Part shown: piece after piece, positions 34,758 through 46,012 of the stretch
How positions within the stretch are numbered: the first letter of the stretch is position 1
Layout of the letters: each line of letters starts with the position of its first letter
From: Flavobacterium gawalongense
GTDB taxonomy: Bacteria > Bacteroidota > Bacteroidia > Flavobacteriales > Flavobacteriaceae
DNA length: 64,000 nucleotides
NCBI RefSeq assembly: GCF_007097265.1
Contig: NZ_VJZP01000003.1
Coordinates: forward strand, 1 to 64,000
Reading direction: 5' to 3'
Notes under the pieces: generated by a model
Told to the model about the DNA's origin: nothing
Databases searched by the model: none
What the model saw: only the letters and a program-made list of their open reading frames with translations
Made by a program: the position numbers and the translations under genes

Positions 34758-35432
34758 TTATCCTCTTACTAAAACTTCATCAATCATTCCGTATACCTTT
34801 GCTTCTTCGGCAATCATCCAGTAATCACGCTCACTATCAGCATGAACTTTCTCGAATGTTTGTCCTGAATGATGAGAAATGATTTTATACAACTCATCTT
34901 TTAGTTTCAACATTTCGCGAAGGTTGATTTCCATATCGGTAGCAACTCCTTGTGCACCACCCGATGGTTGGTGAATCATTACTCTTGAATGCGGCAAAGC
35001 CGAACGTTTTCCTGCAGTTCCTGCACATAATAAAACGGCACCCATTGATGCTGCCATACCCGTACAAATAGTTGCTACATCTGGTTTGATGTATTGCATC
35101 GTGTCATAAATCCCCAATCCTGCGTAAACGCTTCCTCCGGGAGAATTCAAATAAATTTGAATGTCTTTTGAAGCATCAGCGCTTTCAAGAAACAACAACT
35201 GTGCTTGAACGATGTTTGCAATTTGGTCATCAATTCCTGTCCCCAAGAATATAATTCTGTCCATCATCAGCCTGGAGAAAACGTCTAATTGTGAAATATT
35301 CAACTGACGCTCCTCGATGATATATGGAGTCATGTTTTTAGGAGTCATTGCGCCTACGATTTTATCGTAATACATTGAGTTTACGCCGTGGTCCTTTGTA
35401 GCAAATTTTTTAAATTCTTTACCGTAGTTCAT
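34758..35432 (-). CDS. clpP: ATP-dependent Clp protease proteolytic subunit ClpP
   Basis: 224 aa serine protease. Catalytic Ser in TGMAASMGAVLL and His in RVMIHQPSGGAQG, with the expected Asp further on (NLREMLKLKDELY region). It includes a longer N-terminal pre-sequence than Escherichia coli ClpP, common in Bacteroidota. Order of transcription tig, clpP, clpX, each separated by repeat-rich gaps. Confidence 0.96.
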   Translation of the reverse strand: MNYGKEFKKFATKDHGVNSMYYDKIVGAMTPKNMTPYIIEERQLNISQLDVFSRLMMDRIIFLGTGIDDQIANIVQAQLLFLESADASKDIQIYLNSPGGSVYAGLGIYDTMQYIKPDVATICTGMAASMGAVLLCAGTAGKRSALPHSRVMIHQPSGGAQGVATDMEINLREMLKLKDELYKIISHHSGQTFEKVHADSERDYWMIAEEAKVYGMIDEVLVRG

Positions 35433-35497
35433 GTTTAAAAGTTTAAAGTTTAAAGTTTAAGGTTGCTCAACTTTGAACTTTAAACCTTAAACCAATA
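35433..35497. repeat. GTTTAAA/TTTAAAC heptamer tract
   Basis: Tandem GTTTAAA units (35433-35461) face TTTAAAC-like units (35475-35493), able to form an AT hairpin. The same heptamers recur at 4229-4290, 5785-5815 and 9012-9030. Confidence 0.5.
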
Positions 35498-35505
35498 AAA
35501 ATAAA

Positions 35506-35537
35506 GAGCGTCAAAAAAAAATATCCTTTTGACGCTC
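35506..35537 (-). terminator. Terminator of tig
   Basis: GAGCGTCAAAA (35506-35516) and TTTTGACGCTC (35527-35537) are exact complements; on the minus strand the loop and the 3' flank are T-rich. Confidence 0.7.
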
Positions 35538-35560
35538 AAATATACTTATTTTTTTAGAAA

Positions 35561-36886
35561 TTATTCTCCGTATGAAGCGGCAATAAATTCTTCGTAAGTT
35601 ACTTCTTTAGTAGTAGGATTTGCTTTCTCTTTGAACAATTCCAATAATTTCTCCGCAACAACTTGGTCCGAAAGTCTTTTTACTTCGTCTTGGTTTGACA
35701 AAACTCTTGCAACAATTCCCTGAACTTCTTCGTCAGTAGGATTTGTTTGCCCGAATTGAGCCATTTGTTGTCTGATTGATTTTGTAGTAAATGATTTCAA
35801 ATCTTCAAAAGTAATTTTGATATCACTTGAAGCCATTGCTCTACCTTCGATTAACTGAAAACGCAATCCTCTTTCAGATCTTGCATATTCTACTTCAGCT
35901 TCTTCAGGAGACAATTTTTTATCTCCAACCGTTTGCAACCATTTTTTCAAGAATTCAGATGGCAAGTCGAATTTTGTGTTTTCGATCAAGAAATCCTGAA
36001 CATCAGCCAATAATTTTTGGTCTGCTTGTTGAGCAAATTGATTTTCAGCATCTTCTTTGATTTTTGCTTTCAATTCTTCCAGTGAAGCAACAGTTCCTGC
36101 TCCAAAAAGTTTATCAAACAATTCTTGGTTCAATTCAGCCAATTCAGCTGTATTGATTGCTTCGATTGTGAAATCTACATCAACTTCTAATCCGTGAACG
36201 TCATCATGATTTACTTTCATAACATCCATCAATTGATGATCGTCTTCGAATAAACCTTTAGTGTTTACAGTCACGACATCCCCTACTTTTTTACCGATAA
36301 ATTTATCAGCAGTAGCTTTGTCTTTGAAAAGATCCAAAGAAATAGTGGGAGCGTTATTAATTCCTTTTTCTTCGTTTGTGAAAGTCCCGGTAATATCCGA
36401 ACCTGCTTCAACCACATCTTGAGGAATTGCTTTTCCAAATTGTTTTTGGATACGTTCTACTTGACCTTCGATTAATTTATCATCAGCAGAAATTACATAT
36501 TTTACAATGTCGTTTTTAGCTTCTAAATCCAATTCGAAGTTTGGCACTAAACCAATTTCATATTCAAAAACCAATTCTTCAGTATCCCAAGAAAAATCTT
36601 CGTTTACTTTAACAAGTGGCGTTCCAAGAAGGTTTAATCTTTCCGATTGTACGAAACGCTCTAAAGCTAAATCCACAACTTTCTGAACTTCTTCTTGTTT
36701 GATGGCGCGACCGTATTGTTTTTCAACAAGATCTTTAGGCACAGCCCCTTTTCTAAATCCTTTAACAGTTGCCAAAGGCATTTTTTCGTTTATTCTTTTT
36801 GCTACTTGCCCTTTGTAATCCATATGAACAACTGTCATTACAATTGTCTCAGTTACAGCGTCTGTTGCTACTCTTTTAATATCCAT
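35561..36886 (-). CDS. tig: Trigger factor (ribosome-associated chaperone)
   Basis: 441 aa. The N-terminal ribosome-binding domain has KGFRKGAVPKDLVEKQYG (residues about 41-58), related to the GFRxGKxP signature with Ala and Val substitutions typical of Bacteroidota. The central FKBP-like domain covers about 155-245 (GSDITGTFTNEEKGI). The C-terminal helical arms follow. It binds nascent chains at the ribosome exit. Encoded upstream of clpP, the usual order. Confidence 0.93.
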   Translation of the reverse strand: MDIKRVATDAVTETIVMTVVHMDYKGQVAKRINEKMPLATVKGFRKGAVPKDLVEKQYGRAIKQEEVQKVVDLALERFVQSERLNLLGTPLVKVNEDFSWDTEELVFEYEIGLVPNFELDLEAKNDIVKYVISADDKLIEGQVERIQKQFGKAIPQDVVEAGSDITGTFTNEEKGINNAPTISLDLFKDKATADKFIGKKVGDVVTVNTKGLFEDDHQLMDVMKVNHDDVHGLEVDVDFTIEAINTAELAELNQELFDKLFGAGTVASLEELKAKIKEDAENQFAQQADQKLLADVQDFLIENTKFDLPSEFLKKWLQTVGDKKLSPEEAEVEYARSERGLRFQLIEGRAMASSDIKITFEDLKSFTTKSIRQQMAQFGQTNPTDEEVQGIVARVLSNQDEVKRLSDQVVAEKLLELFKEKANPTTKEVTYEEFIAASYGE

Positions 36887-37202: not shown

Positions 37203-37313
37203 AAATTAAATAATATATGGCTATTATCGCACACATACACCTAATATGGGTGACTTTGTGTAATTTCGTCACACCTATATACAAGTTGTACGTAATCTTA
37301 AAAAAAATCGTAA

Positions 37314-37698
37314 ATGAAAAAACATCTGCTTTTAATCATAATTTTTATTTCTAATTTTATTTTTTCGCAAACACCACATTTAGAAAGAACTATAAATTTA
37401 GATATAGAGAAAGGTTTGGTTACTTGCGTTTTTAAAATTTCAAATATTGACAGAAATAATTCTTATTCTATATTACTAAATAGAGGTTTTAATGTGAAAT
37501 ATTTCAAACTTAACAATCAAGTTTTAGATGCAGGCAGAAAACCAAATTATAATTCAATAGAATATGATATTTACAAATCAAATTCAACTGAAACACATAC
37601 CCTACAAAGAAAACGAAACAGATTTTTATTATAAAACCCAAATAAATTGTAACTATGATCCCTATAAAAATAAATGGATTAATAATAAGAATCATTAG
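37314..37698 (+). pseudogene. Small secreted protein interrupted by a frameshift
   Basis: The first frame gives a signal peptide (MKKHLLLIIIFISNFIFSQ) and about 75 residues of beta-type sequence (HLERTINLDIEKGLVTCVFK), then ends at 37634 in an Arg/Lys tail. One base along, the next frame reads IPYKENETDFYYKTQINCNY and ends at TAG 37696-37698, which looks like the true C-terminus. The break is at about 37580-37600. The beginning recalls the N-terminal domain of M1-type peptidases, but this is weak. The end overlaps the start of the next gene. Confidence 0.6.
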
Positions 37699-39313
37699 CT
37701 TTTTTGTTTTATTCTTTTTGATTTCTTGTGTAGCTAGCAAAAGCAAACTTGCTGAAAGAAACTACTTTAACAAGAATTATTTTTACAATGACTCCCTCAA
37801 GGTTGCCATAGATTTTGAAGATGATTTAGAGTTTTCGGACGTTTCTTTTTTGAAAACTAAAGAATACAAACAGTTTTTGAATCTTCATAAACAATTAGTA
37901 TTTAAAGATTTGTTTTTAGCCGTAAAATCGATTAAAAATGAATATGAATTATCTTTGTTCACTAATAAATTAAAGGATTTTAAAGATACTTTAATAAGTC
38001 AAAAAATAGTATTTAAAGATAGCATAAACAATACAATAATTTTTGAAAAACAAAAAGGTTTAAATAAAATTATTGGTTTTTTGAAAAATAAATCAAAAAA
38101 TAATATTTCAGACTTTTCATTGCAATTAGCCTCAAAAATCAATATGGATTCTGTGGAGAAATGGCAGTTTTCTTCTAAATCAATTTTTGAAAATTATTTT
38201 GAAAATACACATCCAAATGACCTACTGGCTCGTAAAAAATTTGACAAACAACCTTTTAAAAATTATAGAAAGGATGAATGGAGATTTGATATTGTAGCGG
38301 CTGTTAACTCATTTATTTCAAACAATATAAAATACGATTCAATAATAAAAATATACGAAAAAGTAATTAAAGAGAAATACAATCCATTTATTTCGAATAT
38401 AGCCGGTAAAGTAACTACTTATAAAAATAATTCGGTTTTTGATAAAATAGCCGAAATTGCTAAAAATAATCAAGTAATAATGCTCAATGAAAATCATTTT
38501 TACCCAAACAATCGCATTTTTTCCATGCAGATGCTTAGTGTTTTAAAACAAAATGGTTTTACACATATTTCATTAGAAGCCTTTGACCCACCAGTAGATA
38601 GCAAAATGCAATATTCGCCAAAATATGAAGACGGACAATACACCAGCGAGCCTTATTATGCCCATTTTTTAAGAAAAGCCAAAGAACTTGGCCTTGTAAT
38701 ACAAGGTCATGAAAGTTATGGCGGATGTGAAGGTAGAGATAGTAGAGAAATTGGTCAAGCAAAAAACATATATAAAATTTTGAAAGAAAAACCAGCTGCA
38801 AAAATTTTTGTTTATGTTGGTTTTGGGCATATAGAAAAAGACACTGTAATTGGTGATAAAAGAAAGAAAATGGCTTTTTATTTTAAAAAGTTATCAGGCA
38901 TTAACCCTATAACAATCAACCAAACGCTATTACATACTGATAACAAAGAAGATTTATTATTGATAGCTCGCACTATCATAAATGATAGTATTAAGAATGA
39001 ATCGTCGGCGGATTATTTTTTGGTCAATAATATAAAACCAAATTTAAAACTTATATATCCTAATGCAGTTTTTGTAAAAAGCAAAATTCAGAGTAAAAAA
39101 TTTAAAAACTACAGAAAGAAAGAGGTATTGGTAGAAATCATAAATTTTGTAGAGTATCATTTATTAAATAAATCGGCAGTACCTATTTCGAGTTTTTTAG
39201 CAACTCCAAAAAACAAAGAAATCGATTTTGAATTGCCTATTGGTAAATACCATGTTTATGTAAAAACAACTGATAATACTATTATTTATGATGATAATTT
39301 AATTGTAAATTAA
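37655..39313 (+). CDS. Large lipoprotein with a C-terminal ChaN/EreA-like (TraB/Tiki-type) domain
   Basis: 552 aa. Lipoprotein signal with lipobox LISC (Cys near residue 25). Residues about 30-260 are helical with no recognised family. About 275-420 hold IMLNENHFYPNNRIFSMQML, then ISLEAFDPP, GQYTSEPYYAHFLRKAKELG, IQGHESYGG and FVYVGFGHIEKD. The N-E-N-H-F and G-F-G-H pair is the spacing of acidic/His active-site motifs in the EreA/ChaN/Tiki superfamily, to which erythromycin esterase and heme-binding ChaN belong. A C-terminal beta tail of about 60 residues follows. Function unknown; assignment is by motif only. Confidence 0.6.
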   Translation: MIPIKINGLIIRIISFFVLFFLISCVASKSKLAERNYFNKNYFYNDSLKVAIDFEDDLEFSDVSFLKTKEYKQFLNLHKQLVFKDLFLAVKSIKNEYELSLFTNKLKDFKDTLISQKIVFKDSINNTIIFEKQKGLNKIIGFLKNKSKNNISDFSLQLASKINMDSVEKWQFSSKSIFENYFENTHPNDLLARKKFDKQPFKNYRKDEWRFDIVAAVNSFISNNIKYDSIIKIYEKVIKEKYNPFISNIAGKVTTYKNNSVFDKIAEIAKNNQVIMLNENHFYPNNRIFSMQMLSVLKQNGFTHISLEAFDPPVDSKMQYSPKYEDGQYTSEPYYAHFLRKAKELGLVIQGHESYGGCEGRDSREIGQAKNIYKILKEKPAAKIFVYVGFGHIEKDTVIGDKRKKMAFYFKKLSGINPITINQTLLHTDNKEDLLLIARTIINDSIKNESSADYFLVNNIKPNLKLIYPNAVFVKSKIQSKKFKNYRKKEVLVEIINFVEYHLLNKSAVPISSFLATPKNKEIDFELPIGKYHVYVKTTDNTIIYDDNLIVN

Positions 39314-39340
39314 CTTCTATTATTTACCATCTATATTCCC

Positions 39341-39371
39341 CCGCTAGCGCGAGCGTCCCGCTCGTGCCCAC
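39341..39371 (+). repeat. Left REP end of the RAYT element
   Basis: 31 bp, CCGCTAGCGCGAGCG to CGTGCCCAC, the exact reverse complement of 40067-40097. It contains the hairpin CGAGCG-TCC-CGCTCG and the palindrome CGCTAGCG. Confidence 0.92.
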
Positions 39372-39509
39372 AAACAAGAGCAGGAAAACAAAAGCTAAAT
39401 CTTAAAAAAGTCAAATTTTTTCTGCTTATAAAGAAAGATTTAGAAGGAATTTAATTAGTTTTTCAGCTTATAATTGGAGTGGTTTGAGTACTTAAACATA
39501 AGCAAATCT

Positions 39510-40058
39510 ATGAGCACAAAATATAAATTTGGAGAAAGTACAGGAGCTTATTTTGTAAGTTTTGCCACAGTAAATTGGATAGATGTATTTACAAGGGATG
39601 CGTATTTTGGGAATATCATTGAATCATTGGACTTTTGCAGAAAAAATAAAGCGATGGAAATTTATGGGTATTGCATTATGCCAAGCCATGTTCATTTAAT
39701 ATTTCGCTCAGGAAATGGCGATCCATCAGGATTGATGCGAGATTTCAAAGGATTCACATCAAAAAAAATGCTTCAAACAATCGAAGAAAATGCTCAAGAA
39801 AGCCGACGAGAATGGATGCTTTGGATGATGGAACGAGCAGGAAAAAAGAACAGTAATGTAACGTATAGACAGTTTTGGCAACAGGATAATCATCCAATAG
39901 AAATTTGGTCGTTGAAGGTTTTTGAACAAAAACTTAATTATATACATCACAATCCCGTCGAATCTGGTTTTGTAACTGACCCAATAGATTGGAAATATAG
40001 TAGTGCCAGAAATTATGGAAATAATGATCAAACGATTTTAGAGATAGATTTGAATTGA
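39510..40058 (+). CDS. REP-associated tyrosine transposase (RAYT, IS200/Y1 superfamily)
   Basis: 182 aa from the ATG at 39510 (MSTKYKFGESTGAYFVSF). The HUH motif is PSHVHLIFR near residue 63. The C-terminal family signature KLNYIHHNPVESGFV and WKYSSARNY are present. The single-Tyr nuclease is expected to cut and join REP hairpin DNA. The sequence looks full length and intact. Confidence 0.93.
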   Translation: MSTKYKFGESTGAYFVSFATVNWIDVFTRDAYFGNIIESLDFCRKNKAMEIYGYCIMPSHVHLIFRSGNGDPSGLMRDFKGFTSKKMLQTIEENAQESRREWMLWMMERAGKKNSNVTYRQFWQQDNHPIEIWSLKVFEQKLNYIHHNPVESGFVTDPIDWKYSSARNYGNNDQTILEIDLN

Positions 40059-40066
40059 TTTTGATA

Positions 40067-40097
40067 GTGGGCACGAGCGGGACGCTCGCGCTAGCGG
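40067..40097 (-). repeat. Right REP end of the RAYT element
   Basis: Exact reverse complement of 39341-39371. The next bases (AGGATCGTGCTCC) already belong to the truncated MOSC gene. Confidence 0.92.
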
Positions 40098-40100
40098 AGG

Positions 40101-40199
40101 ATCGTGCTCCAAACCTCGATCTGTCACTTGAGCTTCTTGCAATTTAATTCCACCTAATGATTTTACAGGATAAATCCAGATTTCTGAAAGTTGTAACAT
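40101..40199 (-). pseudogene. Severed N-terminus of a MOSC-domain (YcbX-type) gene
   Basis: ATG at 40199, then 33 codons reading MLQLSEIWIYPVKSLGGIKL and QEAQVTDRGLEHD, the MOSC_N beta-barrel start (xLxxIxIYPVKSxxG...GLxxDR). Family members continue with RRW and over 200 more residues; here the frame runs straight into the right REP and decodes as unrelated sequence. The missing part is not on the far side of the element, so it was lost, not merely separated. Confidence 0.85.
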
Positions 40200-40244: not shown

Positions 40245-42857
40245 TTAATAATTCAAACTCAACCCAAAACCCATTCCCATATCGCTATCATAGTGCGTTC
40301 TGATACCAAAGTTTCTTTTGATAATATATTTTAAACTAGCCATATATTCTTTATCCGTATTCCACATTAAATCCATACGTAGTCGTTTAGAAACAGGAAT
40401 GTCTTTTCGTTCGAATTGCAATCTGAAATTTCCGTCTGTAAATACTTCTGCTTGAGCTTTGATAAGCATTGGCAAGGTATATTCGACTCCGGCACTAAAA
40501 ACTGCTCGATTGTCTTTGGTGTTTGTTTGACCAAATAGATTTCTTTCCTGTTCGTCTATCCCCATTTTTCTGTAACGCCAATCAAAACCTACAAAAGGCA
40601 TTATCCATTGCATTTTGTCGATGTATCGCCCTACATGGGTTTCGGTTTCATAACCGTGGTGTTCTTTGTAACCTAAACGCCATTCGGTACCAATACTCCA
40701 ACGTGTGCTTCCTAACATCACCTCACCATCGTTTCCGTTTGTGGCAAAATCATTTTCAGCCATAAAATGAAACTCTCTATCGTCAGCAAATAATTTTCGT
40801 TGTGCCAATTTTGGATTTGGAATTTCGGGATTTGGTGCTTGATTTTCGTAACTAAAAACCCTACCCATTCCACTCATCATATGATACAAAATATGGCAAT
40901 GAAAAAACCAATCACCACTTGCATTTGCATTAAATTCTAATGTATCTGTTTCCATTGGCATAATGTCAACAATATTTTTTAATGGTGCATGATCGCCTTG
41001 TCCATTGAGCAACCTAAAATCGTGACCATGTAAGTGCATTGGGTGTCGCATCATAGAATTATTGTGTAAAACGATACGCACATTTTCCCCTTTTTTAATT
41101 AAGATTTTATCGGCTTCCGAAACTACTTTGTTGTCCAAACTCCAAACGTAGCGGCTCATATTTCCTGTTAGTTCAAACTTCAACTCTTTCACCGGCACGT
41201 CTTTTGGAAGATTGGTTTTTGTAGGCGATTTAAGCATCGCATAATTCAACGTAACGATATCAGAAAGTGCATTAGAGTCATACATGTTATGGTTTGCATG
41301 CGCATCATCCATTTTCATATCGGTTTTTTTAGCCTCCCCTCCTTCGGAGGGGTTGGGGGAGGATATTTCAGGATACATTACCACGTTCATATCCATTTGG
41401 TTAAGCGACATCTGCATTCCCATATCGTCCAAATCACCGTTCATTTTCATCATGCCGTTCATCATCTTCATTCCTTCAAAATATTTTAATTTTGGTAGAG
41501 GGGAGGCCAATTGCCTGATCCCATTACCCAGATACAGGGATGCCGATTTGGTACGATCCTCCGGTGTAACCAAAAATTCATAGGCCGTATTTTCGGCTGG
41601 AATGGTGACGATAACATCATAGGTTTCGGAAACGGCAATAAGTAATCGATCCACTTCAACGGGCTCTACGTCGTTTCCATCGTTTGCCACAACGGCGATT
41701 TTGCCACCGGCATAAGTAAGCCAAAAATTAGTTGACGCCCCGCCGTTTGAAATTCTTAAACGGGCTTTATCGCCTGCTTTAAATTGGGAAAGTTGGCTTT
41801 CGTTTTTTCCGTTAATTAAAAATTTATCGTAAGCCACATCGCTCACGTCCATGGCATTCATACGTTTCCATTCGTTTGTCAATTTGGTTTTAAAATGCCC
41901 GCTTCTTATGGCCTCTGCATAACTTTGGGTTGTTCCTTTTTTAATGGCAAACCAATCAGAAGCATTATGTAGCATTCGGTGTACGTTCTCAGGATTCATA
42001 TCCGTCCATTCACTTAAAACTAATGGAACGGTTGGCAAATCATCAATACCTTTTCTAAAATCCTCTCCCTCCGCCCTCTCCGAAGGGGAGGGAACTTTTT
42101 TGTTCATGATAAAGGAACCATACATACCAATTTGTTCCTGCAGACCGGTATGACTATGGTACCAATGCGTTCCGTGCTGAATGATTGGGAACTTGTACAA
42201 ATGCGTGGTATGGGGCTTTATGGGCATTTGCGTCAAATTGGGCACGCCATCGTATCGATTAGGTAACATTAGTCCGTGCCAATGCAAGGATGTTTCTTCG
42301 TTCAATTCATTGTGCACATAAATTTCAGCGGTATCACCTTCTGTAAATGTAAGTGTTGGCATTGGAATTTGTCCGTTTACGGCAATGGCTCTTTTAGGTT
42401 TGCCTGTAAAATTTACAATGGTGTCTCGCACATATAAATCGTATCGAACTGTTCTTGGCGGTGTGTTTTTCCCTATTCTTTTAACAGGTTCCTCTTTCAC
42501 TTTGATTTTATCTACAGGAACATTTGAATGATTTTGATGCAAATCATCACTTGCAGTTTCCGTTTGAATAACGCTTGTTTTTAAAGGCACTTCTTTTTTC
42601 ACAACTGCTTTTGGCGCTTGCTTTTTTGGAACGGATTTTTTTACAGGTTTTGCTTTTTCTTTAATTAAATCCATACCGCATTTGGGGCATTTTCCCGGTT
42701 TACTTGCATGAATTTCAGGATGCATTACACAGTTATAGGTTGCAGGCTGCACCTGGAAAATTTCCGATTTTTTAGAAATGCTTGTCTCATTCCTATTTTC
42801 TGCTTGTGCAAAGGAGTTTATTGCGAGTATAAATACTAATAGTACTGTTTTTTTCAT
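40245..42857 (-). CDS. Multicopper oxidase (CopA-like) with N-terminal metal-binding domain and C-terminal CopB-like barrel
   Basis: 870 aa. Signal peptide (1-19), then a heavy-metal-binding domain YNCVMHPEIHASKPGKCPKC with GMDL (about 40-65), a Lys/Pro-rich linker, and a three-cupredoxin oxidase (about 130-650) with all copper motifs: HWHGLMLPN, HWYHSHTG, HPMHLHGHDF and HCHILYHMMSGM. A Met/His-rich insert (MKMMNGMMKMNGDLDDMGM) lies before the last domain. Residues about 665-870 are beta-barrel-like (STRWSIGTEWRLGYKEHHGY, ending MGMGFGLSLNY), like copper-resistance protein B. Probably oxidises periplasmic Cu(I). Two in-frame palindromic inserts are listed separately. Last gene after copA and the MerC-like gene. 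Confidence 0.92.
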   Translation of the reverse strand: MKKTVLLVFILAINSFAQAENRNETSISKKSEIFQVQPATYNCVMHPEIHASKPGKCPKCGMDLIKEKAKPVKKSVPKKQAPKAVVKKEVPLKTSVIQTETASDDLHQNHSNVPVDKIKVKEEPVKRIGKNTPPRTVRYDLYVRDTIVNFTGKPKRAIAVNGQIPMPTLTFTEGDTAEIYVHNELNEETSLHWHGLMLPNRYDGVPNLTQMPIKPHTTHLYKFPIIQHGTHWYHSHTGLQEQIGMYGSFIMNKKVPSPSERAEGEDFRKGIDDLPTVPLVLSEWTDMNPENVHRMLHNASDWFAIKKGTTQSYAEAIRSGHFKTKLTNEWKRMNAMDVSDVAYDKFLINGKNESQLSQFKAGDKARLRISNGGASTNFWLTYAGGKIAVVANDGNDVEPVEVDRLLIAVSETYDVIVTIPAENTAYEFLVTPEDRTKSASLYLGNGIRQLASPLPKLKYFEGMKMMNGMMKMNGDLDDMGMQMSLNQMDMNVVMYPEISSPNPSEGGEAKKTDMKMDDAHANHNMYDSNALSDIVTLNYAMLKSPTKTNLPKDVPVKELKFELTGNMSRYVWSLDNKVVSEADKILIKKGENVRIVLHNNSMMRHPMHLHGHDFRLLNGQGDHAPLKNIVDIMPMETDTLEFNANASGDWFFHCHILYHMMSGMGRVFSYENQAPNPEIPNPKLAQRKLFADDREFHFMAENDFATNGNDGEVMLGSTRWSIGTEWRLGYKEHHGYETETHVGRYIDKMQWIMPFVGFDWRYRKMGIDEQERNLFGQTNTKDNRAVFSAGVEYTLPMLIKAQAEVFTDGNFRLQFERKDIPVSKRLRMDLMWNTDKEYMASLKYIIKRNFGIRTHYDSDMGMGFGLSLNY
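41333..41362. repeat. Palindromic repeat inserted in-frame in the oxidase gene (1)
   Basis: CCCCTCC-TTC-GGAGGGG with TTGGGGGAGG beyond. On the coding strand it reads SSPNPSEGGEA between a Met-rich segment and KKTDMKMDD. Such CCTCCGAAGGAGG palindromes are usually intergenic in Flavobacterium (from memory). Confidence 0.65.
42062..42095. repeat. Palindromic repeat inserted in-frame in the oxidase gene (2)
   Basis: CCCTCTCC-GA-A-GGGGAGGG type palindrome. The coding strand reads KVPSPSERAEGED directly before the conserved FRKGIDDLPTVPLVLSEWT. Composition (Pro/Ser/Glu/Arg, GC-rich) differs from the surrounding gene. Confidence 0.65.
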
Positions 42858-43474: not shown

Positions 43475-46012
43475 TTAAAGTTTTAAATTCCTTAATCGTA
43501 AGGCATTTGCAATTACTGAAACAGAACTAAAACTCATTGCCAAAGCGGCTATCATTGGCGAAAGCAAGACTCCAAAAAACGGATACAAAACACCCGCTGC
43601 AATTGGAATTCCTAATACATTGTAGAAAAAGGCAAAAAATAAATTTTGCTTGATATTTCGCATTACTGCATGACTTAAATTTTTGGCTTTGACTATCCCT
43701 TGCAAGTCTCCTTTTACCAAGGTAATTTTAGCACTTTCAATAGCAACATCAGTTCCGGTTCCCATAGCAATTCCGATATCGGCTTGCGCCAAAGCCGGAG
43801 CATCGTTAATTCCGTCACCTGCCATTGCAACAATTTTTCCTTCGGATTGTAATCGTTTAATTTCCTTGAGCTTGTCTTCGGGTAAACAGCCTGCTTTATA
43901 AGAGCTTAAATTCAATGTTGACGCAACTGCTTTTGCCGTATTCTCATTATCTCCGGTAAGCATTATCACTTCAACGCCTTGACGCATTAATTCTTTTATG
44001 GCTTCGACACTTGTAGCTTTTATGGCATCAGTAATTGATACGAATCCCACAGCTATTCCATCAACTGAAATATAAGAAACTGTTTTCCCTAGTTTCTGTT
44101 CTGCAATAATTTTATTTTCCAATTCATCCAAAACTGTAGCATTCACTTGCTCCATTAATTTTTTATTTCCGAGTGCCACTTTTTTATTGGTTACCGTCCC
44201 AATAACTCCTTTCCCTGAAATCGCTTCAAAATCCTTTACTTCGATTAATGAAGCATTTTTCGCTTTCGCAAAATTAACTACGGCTTGCGCCAAAGGATGT
44301 TCGCTGTACTGGTTTAAGGAAGCAATACTTTGCAATAAAGTATTTTCATCACTCTCTAATGAAAACACTTTTTCAACAGAAGGTTTTCCTTCGGTAATTG
44401 TTCCTGTTTTATCGGTTATCAAAACATTTACTTTATTCATTCTTTCCAAAGCTTCGGCGTTTTTTATCAACACCCCAGATTGTGCTCCTTTTCCAACACC
44501 CACCATGACCGACATAGGCGTCGCTAATCCCAAAGCACAAGGACAGGCAATAATCAATACCGCAATGGCATTGATAAATCCATAAACCATTGCGGGTTCA
44601 GGTCCGAATTTTGCCCAAACAAAAAAAGTGATTACCGAAACAAAGACAACAATGGGTACAAAATATTTAGCTATTTTATCTGCTAGTTTCTGAATCGGTG
44701 CTTTAGAACGGCTGGCATTATTTACCATTTGTACAATTTGTGAAAGTAAGGTTTCCGAACCCACTTTCTCGGCAATCATCACAAAGGATTTATTTCCGTT
44801 GATAGTTCCTGAACTAACGCTATCTCCTATTATTTTATCAACAGGAATGGGTTCGCCCGTAATCATCGATTCGTCGATTGCACTTTCTCCATCGGTTATT
44901 TTTCCGTCCACCGGAATTTTATCTCCTGGTTTCACGCGCAATAAGTCTCCTTTTTTGATGTCGTGAATCGAGATTACTTGGTCCTTTCCATCGATTACCA
45001 AAGTAGCTTCGGTTGGTGCTAATTTCAAGAGTTCTTTTATCGCACCACTAGTTCGACTATGTGCTCTGGCTTCGAGTAATTGTCCTAATAAGACTAATGT
45101 TAATATGACTGTCGTCGCCTCAAAATAAAGCAATACGGTCCCATCTTCCGTTCTAAATTCATTTGGAAAAATATCTGGAAAAAACATCCCAGCTAAACTA
45201 AACAAAAAGGCTACTCCAGTACCAATTCCAATAAGGGTAAACATATTGAGATTCCAAGTAACAATCGACTTCCAAGCACGTACAAAAAACATCCAACACG
45301 CATAAAAAACTACAGGAAGAGACAATCCAAACTGTACCCAATTCCACTTGGAAGCATCCATAATTCTCATTAATGGATTGTCAGAAATCATATCTGACAT
45401 GGCAATTAAGAACACCGGAACGGTACATAGTACAGCAATTTTCATTTTGCGCACTAAGTCATTATACACTTTGTTTTCTTCACTTTCGGTTGGTTCCATT
45501 GGCACTAAATCCATTCCACAAATGGGACAGGAACCGGGACCGTCTTTGATTACTTCAGGATGCATTGGACAGGTATACATTATTTTTGCCGAACTCAATT
45601 CTGGAATTTTTTCTAAATTCATTCCACAAACCGGACAACTTCCTGGTTTATCGTACACTTTCTCTCCTTCACAATGCATCGGACAATAATATTTGCCATA
45701 TGCATTACTTGGTAAAGCCACAATCTTTTTATCTTGTATTTTATTGGATTCGCAACACGATTTTGTTACTGGTTCTGTTGCTATTTTTGAGGTGATATTG
45801 GTTGGGGATTCCATAGAAATGGAATATTTACCAGCTTTGGAAAGCGTTTCTTGTAATTGGGCTGTTGGAATATGGTTTTCCATTGTTATTGTTGCTATTG
45901 GCGGATCCAAAGTAACTGTTGCTTGAATCCCATCTATAGCATTCAATGTTTTTTCGACTTTGGAACGACAACCGTCACAACTCATTCCAGTGATAATATA
46001 AGTATGTTTCAT
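43475..46012 (-). CDS. copA: Copper-exporting P1B-type ATPase CopA
   Basis: 845 aa. N-terminal HMA domain (GMSCDGCRSKVEKTL, CxxC at 11-14), then two heavy-metal-binding domains (CPMHCEGEKVYDKPGSCPVC and CPMHPEVIKDGPGSCPICGM, about 105-170). P-type ATPase core: TGEP actuator loop (MITGEPIPVDK), membrane CPC motif IIACPCALG, phosphorylation site DKTGTITEG, SEHPLA, and GDGINDAPALAQADIGIAMG. CPC plus NALRLR marks Cu(I) export (P1B-1). It moves copper from cytoplasm to periplasm, where the oxidase works. Confidence 0.95.
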   Translation of the reverse strand: MKHTYIITGMSCDGCRSKVEKTLNAIDGIQATVTLDPPIATITMENHIPTAQLQETLSKAGKYSISMESPTNITSKIATEPVTKSCCESNKIQDKKIVALPSNAYGKYYCPMHCEGEKVYDKPGSCPVCGMNLEKIPELSSAKIMYTCPMHPEVIKDGPGSCPICGMDLVPMEPTESEENKVYNDLVRKMKIAVLCTVPVFLIAMSDMISDNPLMRIMDASKWNWVQFGLSLPVVFYACWMFFVRAWKSIVTWNLNMFTLIGIGTGVAFLFSLAGMFFPDIFPNEFRTEDGTVLLYFEATTVILTLVLLGQLLEARAHSRTSGAIKELLKLAPTEATLVIDGKDQVISIHDIKKGDLLRVKPGDKIPVDGKITDGESAIDESMITGEPIPVDKIIGDSVSSGTINGNKSFVMIAEKVGSETLLSQIVQMVNNASRSKAPIQKLADKIAKYFVPIVVFVSVITFFVWAKFGPEPAMVYGFINAIAVLIIACPCALGLATPMSVMVGVGKGAQSGVLIKNAEALERMNKVNVLITDKTGTITEGKPSVEKVFSLESDENTLLQSIASLNQYSEHPLAQAVVNFAKAKNASLIEVKDFEAISGKGVIGTVTNKKVALGNKKLMEQVNATVLDELENKIIAEQKLGKTVSYISVDGIAVGFVSITDAIKATSVEAIKELMRQGVEVIMLTGDNENTAKAVASTLNLSSYKAGCLPEDKLKEIKRLQSEGKIVAMAGDGINDAPALAQADIGIAMGTGTDVAIESAKITLVKGDLQGIVKAKNLSHAVMRNIKQNLFFAFFYNVLGIPIAAGVLYPFFGVLLSPMIAALAMSFSSVSVIANALRLRNLKL

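Follow-up and report, generated by a model that had tools for sequence, protein, structure and literature searches.

In Flavobacterium gawalongense an intact RAYT element is joined exactly, at the outer edge of its right REP, to the first 33 codons of a YcbX-type MOSC gene whose remainder appears to have been lost. The junction is real, and it is best explained by a later deletion that ended at the REP, an order of events that we favour over insertion coupled to deletion. By the window we mean the whole stretch of DNA analysed (64,000 nt, positions 1 to 64,000 of contig NZ_VJZP01000003.1, assembly GCF_007097265.1).

Layout of the locus

The element lies between tig (trigger factor; 35561..36886, minus strand), the conserved left anchor of the interval, and a copper-handling set. 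Inside the interval a small ORF comes first, followed by a lipoprotein-like ORF of 552 aa, then the RAYT element and finally the MOSC remnant. The small ORF (37314..37634, plus strand, 106 aa) has no Pfam or NCBIfam match. The lipoprotein-like ORF (37655..39313, plus strand), the stop of which lies 27 bp short of the left REP, has a distant resemblance to ChaN/Tiki that is sub-threshold at best in Pfam (E 0.0079) and has no match in NCBIfam; neither collection gave a family match as erythromycin esterase, and the 'EreA-like' label of an earlier note on this DNA is therefore not retained. Homologues of this ORF were matched at E 1e-10 or better in 44 of 299 genus genomes, this genome counted. 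To the right of the MOSC remnant lie a multicopper oxidase (40245..42857, minus strand) and, as part of the copper-handling set, a copA-type ATPase (43475-46012). The names of the oxidase, RAYT and MOSC come from family searches (Pfam, NCBIfam), while tig, clpX, clpP, copA and comM are putative names given from the sequences. As a separate observation, the clpP–tig spacer (window 35432-35554) resembles the clpP–clpX spacer of relatives, in both orientations.

The RAYT element and its REPs

The RAYT gene (39510..40058, plus strand) is an unbroken frame of 182 aa running from an ATG at 39510 to a stop at 40058 (an alternative TTG start would give 194 aa) and encodes an intact HUH-type Y1 transposase (Y1_Tnp, E 2.3e-8), scoring 96.9 bits against a cut-off of 80 with the NCBIfam model REP_Tyr_transpos (NF047646). 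Its translation contains an HUH motif (PSHVHLI) and a downstream tyrosine (NYIHHNP), which presumably have the catalytic roles usual for such motifs. The gene is flanked by a left REP of 31 nt (39341..39371, plus strand), predicted to fold as a single-strand DNA hairpin, and by a right REP (40067..40097, minus strand) that is an inverted copy identical at 31/31 nt. The arms extend further at lower identity (46 nt, 89%; 39337-39382 and 40056-40101). The predicted fold of the left REP (−9.9 kcal/mol) was equalled by 0 of 200 shuffles and that of the right REP, taken one base off as plus strand (40066-40096, −7.7 kcal/mol), by 30 of 200.

The element is present in low copy. REPs were counted in the full genome, as the earlier note had suggested: a 26-base core, with as many as 3 mismatches allowed, matched the 4.02-Mb assembly at the flanking pair alone, and a 23-base core with up to 2 mismatches agreed with this count of two; two more 30-bp REP matches at 93% lie on contig C3. 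Cognate REPs scattered through the genome, one of the marks of RAYT elements, were thus not found here. The next best RAYT in the same assembly (C32:16170-16544, locus L009) is 72% identical and broken and is not plausible as a donor, and a search of a plasmid collection returned two weak matches. Across the genus stretches 54 of 70 RAYTs have a REP-like match on both sides, defined as at least 20 of 27 bases of the REP core within 330 bp of the RAYT, the 70 being distinct coding stretches with the window included, identical ones counted once and RAYTs whose start is off the contig left out.

The element belongs to an ordinary, known class, and the RAYT is probably a member of the Bacteroidetes subclass 2.6 (RAYT group 5). 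In PMC6006769 this subclass is described as occurring mostly in Bacteroidetes, as equivalent to group 5 of an earlier study and as having atypical secondary structures at its flanks. The likeness lies in a HUH-type Y1 transposase of about 180 aa, inverted hairpin repeats around the gene, a Bacteroidetes host, and WQ and YIHHNP motifs close to the subclass 2.6 entries in that paper; the differences are SHVH here against NH[LIV]H there, and YIHHNP against YIH[QN]NP. The only PDB sequence match, E. coli TnpA-REP (4er8, E 2.5e-4), is distant, and its REPs are given in the same paper as carrying a GTAG foot, whereas the REPs here end in GCTAGCG. The IS200/IS605 elements share the Y1 transposase superfamily, but against NF033573 the RAYT scores 25.8 bits, far under the cut-off of 55. 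Among the RAYT papers listed from an open-licence library no title deals with this locus.

The junction with the MOSC gene

On the minus strand beyond the right REP lie the first 33 codons of a YcbX-type MOSC gene (40101..40199), which Pfam MOSC_N matches at E 4.8e-8 with residues 1-33 aligned to positions 1-34 of a 119-position profile. The MOSC domain proper was not found at this locus by Pfam, although it is present both in the orthologue of relative G355 and in a paralogue elsewhere in this genome. The perfect right REP ends at 40097 and codon 33 occupies 40101-40103, leaving 3 bp between; the longer REP arm, which extends to 40101, closes this gap, as MOSC-like sequence extends to 40100. 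In most of the relatives compared MOSC homology begins at 40100 to 40102, so that the junction (40098..40101), where the longer REP arm ends and MOSC homology starts, is defined with an overlap of at most 2 nt. The MOSC frame continues into the REP as a 53-aa chimeric ORF with its stop at 40038-40040. Because the REP core matches only these two sites in the assembly, and because the fragment agrees with G265 and G355 at 32 of 33 residues and the 45-bp spacer between MOSC and the oxidase is also conserved with them, the junction is not a product of chance.

An assembly artefact, in which the junction would be absent from the chromosome, is very improbable. The genome is a draft (4.02 Mb in 86 contigs) and inverted repeats can mislead assemblers; against this, the repeats are of only 31 bp and occur at this site only, the RAYT has no close second copy, the junction is inside a 210-kb contig and the completeness of the assembly is 99.97%.

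The MOSC gene in related genomes

A search of 299 sampled genus genomes with the 33 codons gave matches at E 1e-8 or better in 27, this genome counted. In 24 of the 26 others the gene is in one piece from residue 1 to at least residue 266; of the remaining two, G003 leaves its contig at residue 233 and G165 carries a full-length decayed pseudogene. The oxidase end was found upstream of MOSC at 8 of the 26 loci, within the 1.5 kb fetched. Intact MOSC genes beside the copper oxidase, which the earlier note had proposed looking for, are present in G265 and G355, where a 272-aa MOSC gene stands in the order ATPase–oxidase–MOSC–spacer–tig–clpP–clpX, the same order as in the window, and no RAYT match was found in the stretch from ATPase to clpX in either. 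Homology between the window and G355 ends at 37287 and resumes at 40102. The block without DNA counterpart in G355 (37288..40101) comprises the small ORF, the lipoprotein ORF and the RAYT element and occupies the place of the MOSC 3' portion and of most of the spacer between MOSC and tig.

The same truncation was found in none of the 26 other matching genomes. G165 was considered as a candidate on account of a 43-aa frame and rejected, its gene being full-length with stops and frameshifts; this pseudogene (L222 8671-9359), about 2 kb from the oxidase, shows the gene decaying independently in another lineage. A move of the MOSC 3' end to another place in this genome was likewise rejected by DNA and domain searches of the assembly. 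MOSC sequence from about residue 32 onward with 1.2 kb downstream gave only a short dispersed repeat on contig C1 and hits with E above 0.04, and the sole MOSC domain in the assembly belongs to a paralogue at C33:177931, which is complete (264 aa), lies 138 kb away among other neighbours and is 57% identical to the fragment over 30 residues. No second copy of the MOSC 5' flank was found in the assembly, a 201-bp query having matched only itself and REP pieces. The elements of the earlier description (an intact transposase, perfect inverted 31-bp REPs, a 33-codon MOSC start on the minus strand 3 bp past the right REP, and the disappearance of the rest of that gene) are thus all borne out, and neither an intact MOSC gene with the same 5' flank in this genome nor the truncated fragment in a relative lacking the RAYT came to light.

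These comparisons indicate that the MOSC gene was once complete here and was then cut, with loss of the remainder. The loss itself is ordinary gene decay. The fragment differs from that of G355 at 5 of 99 nt, and of the changed codons four are silent against one that is not; selection therefore probably acted on the gene up to a fairly recent time, and the truncation looks fairly recent.

Members of the RAYT clade in related species

In a 12-genome clpX–clpP–tig tree, relative G315 forms a pair with this genome (support 93/89). It has a RAYT with a protein 96.7% identical that lies 2.8 kb from tig in the same orientation, the oxidase being about 12 kb further on. The RAYTs of F. xanthum (G317) and F. 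sandaracinum share right-hand neighbours with that of G315, including an ORF of 522-525 aa, and in F. xanthum the oxidase and ATPase follow to the right. Both of these RAYTs are at contig ends, and tig is on another contig in F. xanthum; where they lie relative to tig we infer. The four RAYTs form one clade (97/98 in a 15-row tree) that is separate from RAYTs at other loci (G093, RSP15, strain 28A and F. hiemivividum). At none of the other three RAYTs was a MOSC junction found.

Identity to G315 is 91.4% for the RAYT and 90.6% for clpX/clpP/tig, and this similarity of RAYT to core-gene identity is as expected for inheritance. Since 40 of the 46 codons changed between the two RAYTs are silent, the gene seems to have been kept by selection. 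The earlier note had held that the RAYT moved recently, a claim that these comparisons do not support; nor can the perfect identity of the REPs serve as a clock, because more diverged RAYTs carry nearly the same REPs. The position of the G315 copy near tig, the shared neighbours, the single clade and the core-like identity together make older residence of the RAYT in this interval the simplest reading.

To the left and to the right, the sequence directly next to the RAYT is different in this genome, G315 and F. xanthum, so that the case for a single insertion is one of neighbourhood and clade with no shared junction. Furthermore, F. xanthum is placed apart from this genome and G315 in the core-gene tree (with weak support) but together with them by RAYT, and its RAYT is 99.6% identical to that of F. 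sandaracinum over 547 bp; for these two reasons movement or transfer within the clade must have taken place, perhaps locally. In F. sandaracinum (L087) a RAYT copy running off the contig (1-565) and a relic (1405-1520) lie about 0.85 kb apart, and with the two so close together local hopping is possible.

Three further features of these flanks were noted. The segment to the right of the F. xanthum RAYT was considered as a MOSC-adjacent spacer (73%, with a deletion estimate of 1.5 kb) and dropped, as it may be a paralogue given that an ORF more closely related to it lies near the oxidase in G315. The fragment to the left of the G315 RAYT, provisionally taken for a RhuM-like gene, had no Pfam match and was not used. 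In F. xanthum (L243 1-120) the left REP abuts, at the contig end, a piece similar to the reverse transcriptase of group II introns (RVT_1, E 0.00097, under the Pfam cut-off), and no other part of this piece was seen to the right of the RAYT.

Flanks of RAYT insertions elsewhere in the genus

The joined flanks of two of the 54 REP-flanked RAYTs, those of F. hiemivividum and L103, served as queries against 249 genus genomes. For the F. hiemivividum RAYT the alignment crosses the junction at 76% identity in G019 and at 73% in G204, where gaps of 1 to 7 nt lie nearby, and the junction is likewise bridged by matches in G030, G117 and G191; among the matches listed for L103 in the 249 genomes none bridges it. 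This suggests that deletion is not obligatory on insertion, although one contiguous case gives no rate. In many genomes other DNA parts the F. hiemivividum flanks, its length ranging between about 0.5 kb in G254 and about 12 kb in G036, and thus that spacer is variable too. The gene that adjoins the RAYT in F. hiemivividum has its end at 2330640-2330885 in G036 (C1), and within about 130 bp of it there follows a RAYT 3' piece (2331019-2331153), perhaps a relic of insertion at the same spot.

Among the open frames examined at the edges of the 54 elements, L072 (in G100) was the only one besides the window to be recognised as a cut gene, and the edge peptides at L062 and L236 had no Pfam match. 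At L072 a 95-codon fragment of a second RAYT ends at the REP of the neighbouring copy, a junction of the same kind as that in the window. Several of the Flavobacterium stretches also share a dispersed repeat, about 70-75 nt long and either direct or inverted, seen at L241 (7534-7750) and at L242, L219, L249, L220 and L010.

Breakpoints at the right REP

The break in the window falls on the outer boundary of the right REP. The right REP of F. xanthum breaks off mid-hairpin, and in the F. sandaracinum relic the left REP and about 15 RAYT codons are fused to what is left of the right REP, its last 8 nt (GCTAGCGG); the right flank of this relic shares 94% identity with the one beside the complete element of G315. 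The right REP is also whole in the F. sandaracinum contig-end copy, the first residues of which are off the contig. A breakpoint in or at the 31-nt right REP is therefore found in three of five clade copies or relics from four genomes, a proportion that is suggestive and comes from a post hoc, uncontrolled count. It could be that the REPs of RAYT elements in Bacteroidetes are sites where DNA breaks repeatedly or even in a programmed way, with the transposase nicking the REP foot and giving one-sided deletions outward or inward, so that the neighbourhood is sculpted without transposition; we consider a general role of this sort quite unlikely.

Discussion

The probable course of events, by a modest measure, is that the RAYT was resident first and that a later, one-sided deletion reached as far as the outer limit of its right REP. 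A low-copy element (the gene and two inverted REPs) would already have been in the variable tig–copper interval of an ancestor common to this genome, G315, F. xanthum and F. sandaracinum. Later, in the present lineage, a deletion would have taken the last 239 MOSC codons and everything up to the element, one of its ends being the outer edge of the right REP and the minimum loss being about 0.7 kb of MOSC together with its downstream spacer. The deletion may have stopped at the REP because the RAYT nicked the REP foot and the ends were then wrongly rejoined, or because replication or repair met trouble at the hairpin. We infer from comparison of the genomes that the copy at the junction today is the ancestral one, that residency preceded the deletion and that the REP had a part in it.

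The earlier note had instead coupled insertion to deletion: the element, arriving from elsewhere or by a local hop, would have entered MOSC and the insertion itself would have deleted the DNA adjacent on the left. We regard this as rather unlikely. The exactness of the junction, to within about 2 nt, would fit such an event, as would the REP-edge ending of the RAYT fragment at L072, and local movement is suggested by the F. sandaracinum copy with its nearby relic and by adjacent matches in G100 C19 and G366 C27. Movement of insertion sequences has also been linked to large adjacent deletions and rearrangements, for other transposase types and in laboratory evolution, in PMC11708052; as there, the deletion here ends at an element edge, whereas here it is deduced from comparison only. 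A clade member is, however, already in this interval in G315, the assembly offers no close donor and the F. hiemivividum copy has flanks that are contiguous in RAYT-free relatives, so that the coupling is unsupported.

A simple insertion at MOSC codon 33, with the left half of the gene then lost or replaced as the lipoprotein block came in and the deletion end at the left REP, is also unlikely. The left flank of the element is indeed foreign too, from 37288 on relative to G355 and from 37213 on relative to G265, and in G165, G283 and G247, the three genomes compared by coordinates, a homologue of the lipoprotein ORF lies away from the tig or MOSC locus. Of the other stretches with such a homologue, L224 and L228 were compared by blastn and L225 through the flank search. 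This account nevertheless requires a new insertion away from the spot occupied by the clade, and there is no MOSC 3' remnant beside the left REP.

How REPs spread is said in PMC8266576 to remain to be elucidated. The locus described here provides one RAYT clade that can be traced through related species beside conserved anchors, and the right-REP breakpoints, together with the case of contiguous flanks elsewhere, make it testable whether the REP marks the place where DNA breaks.
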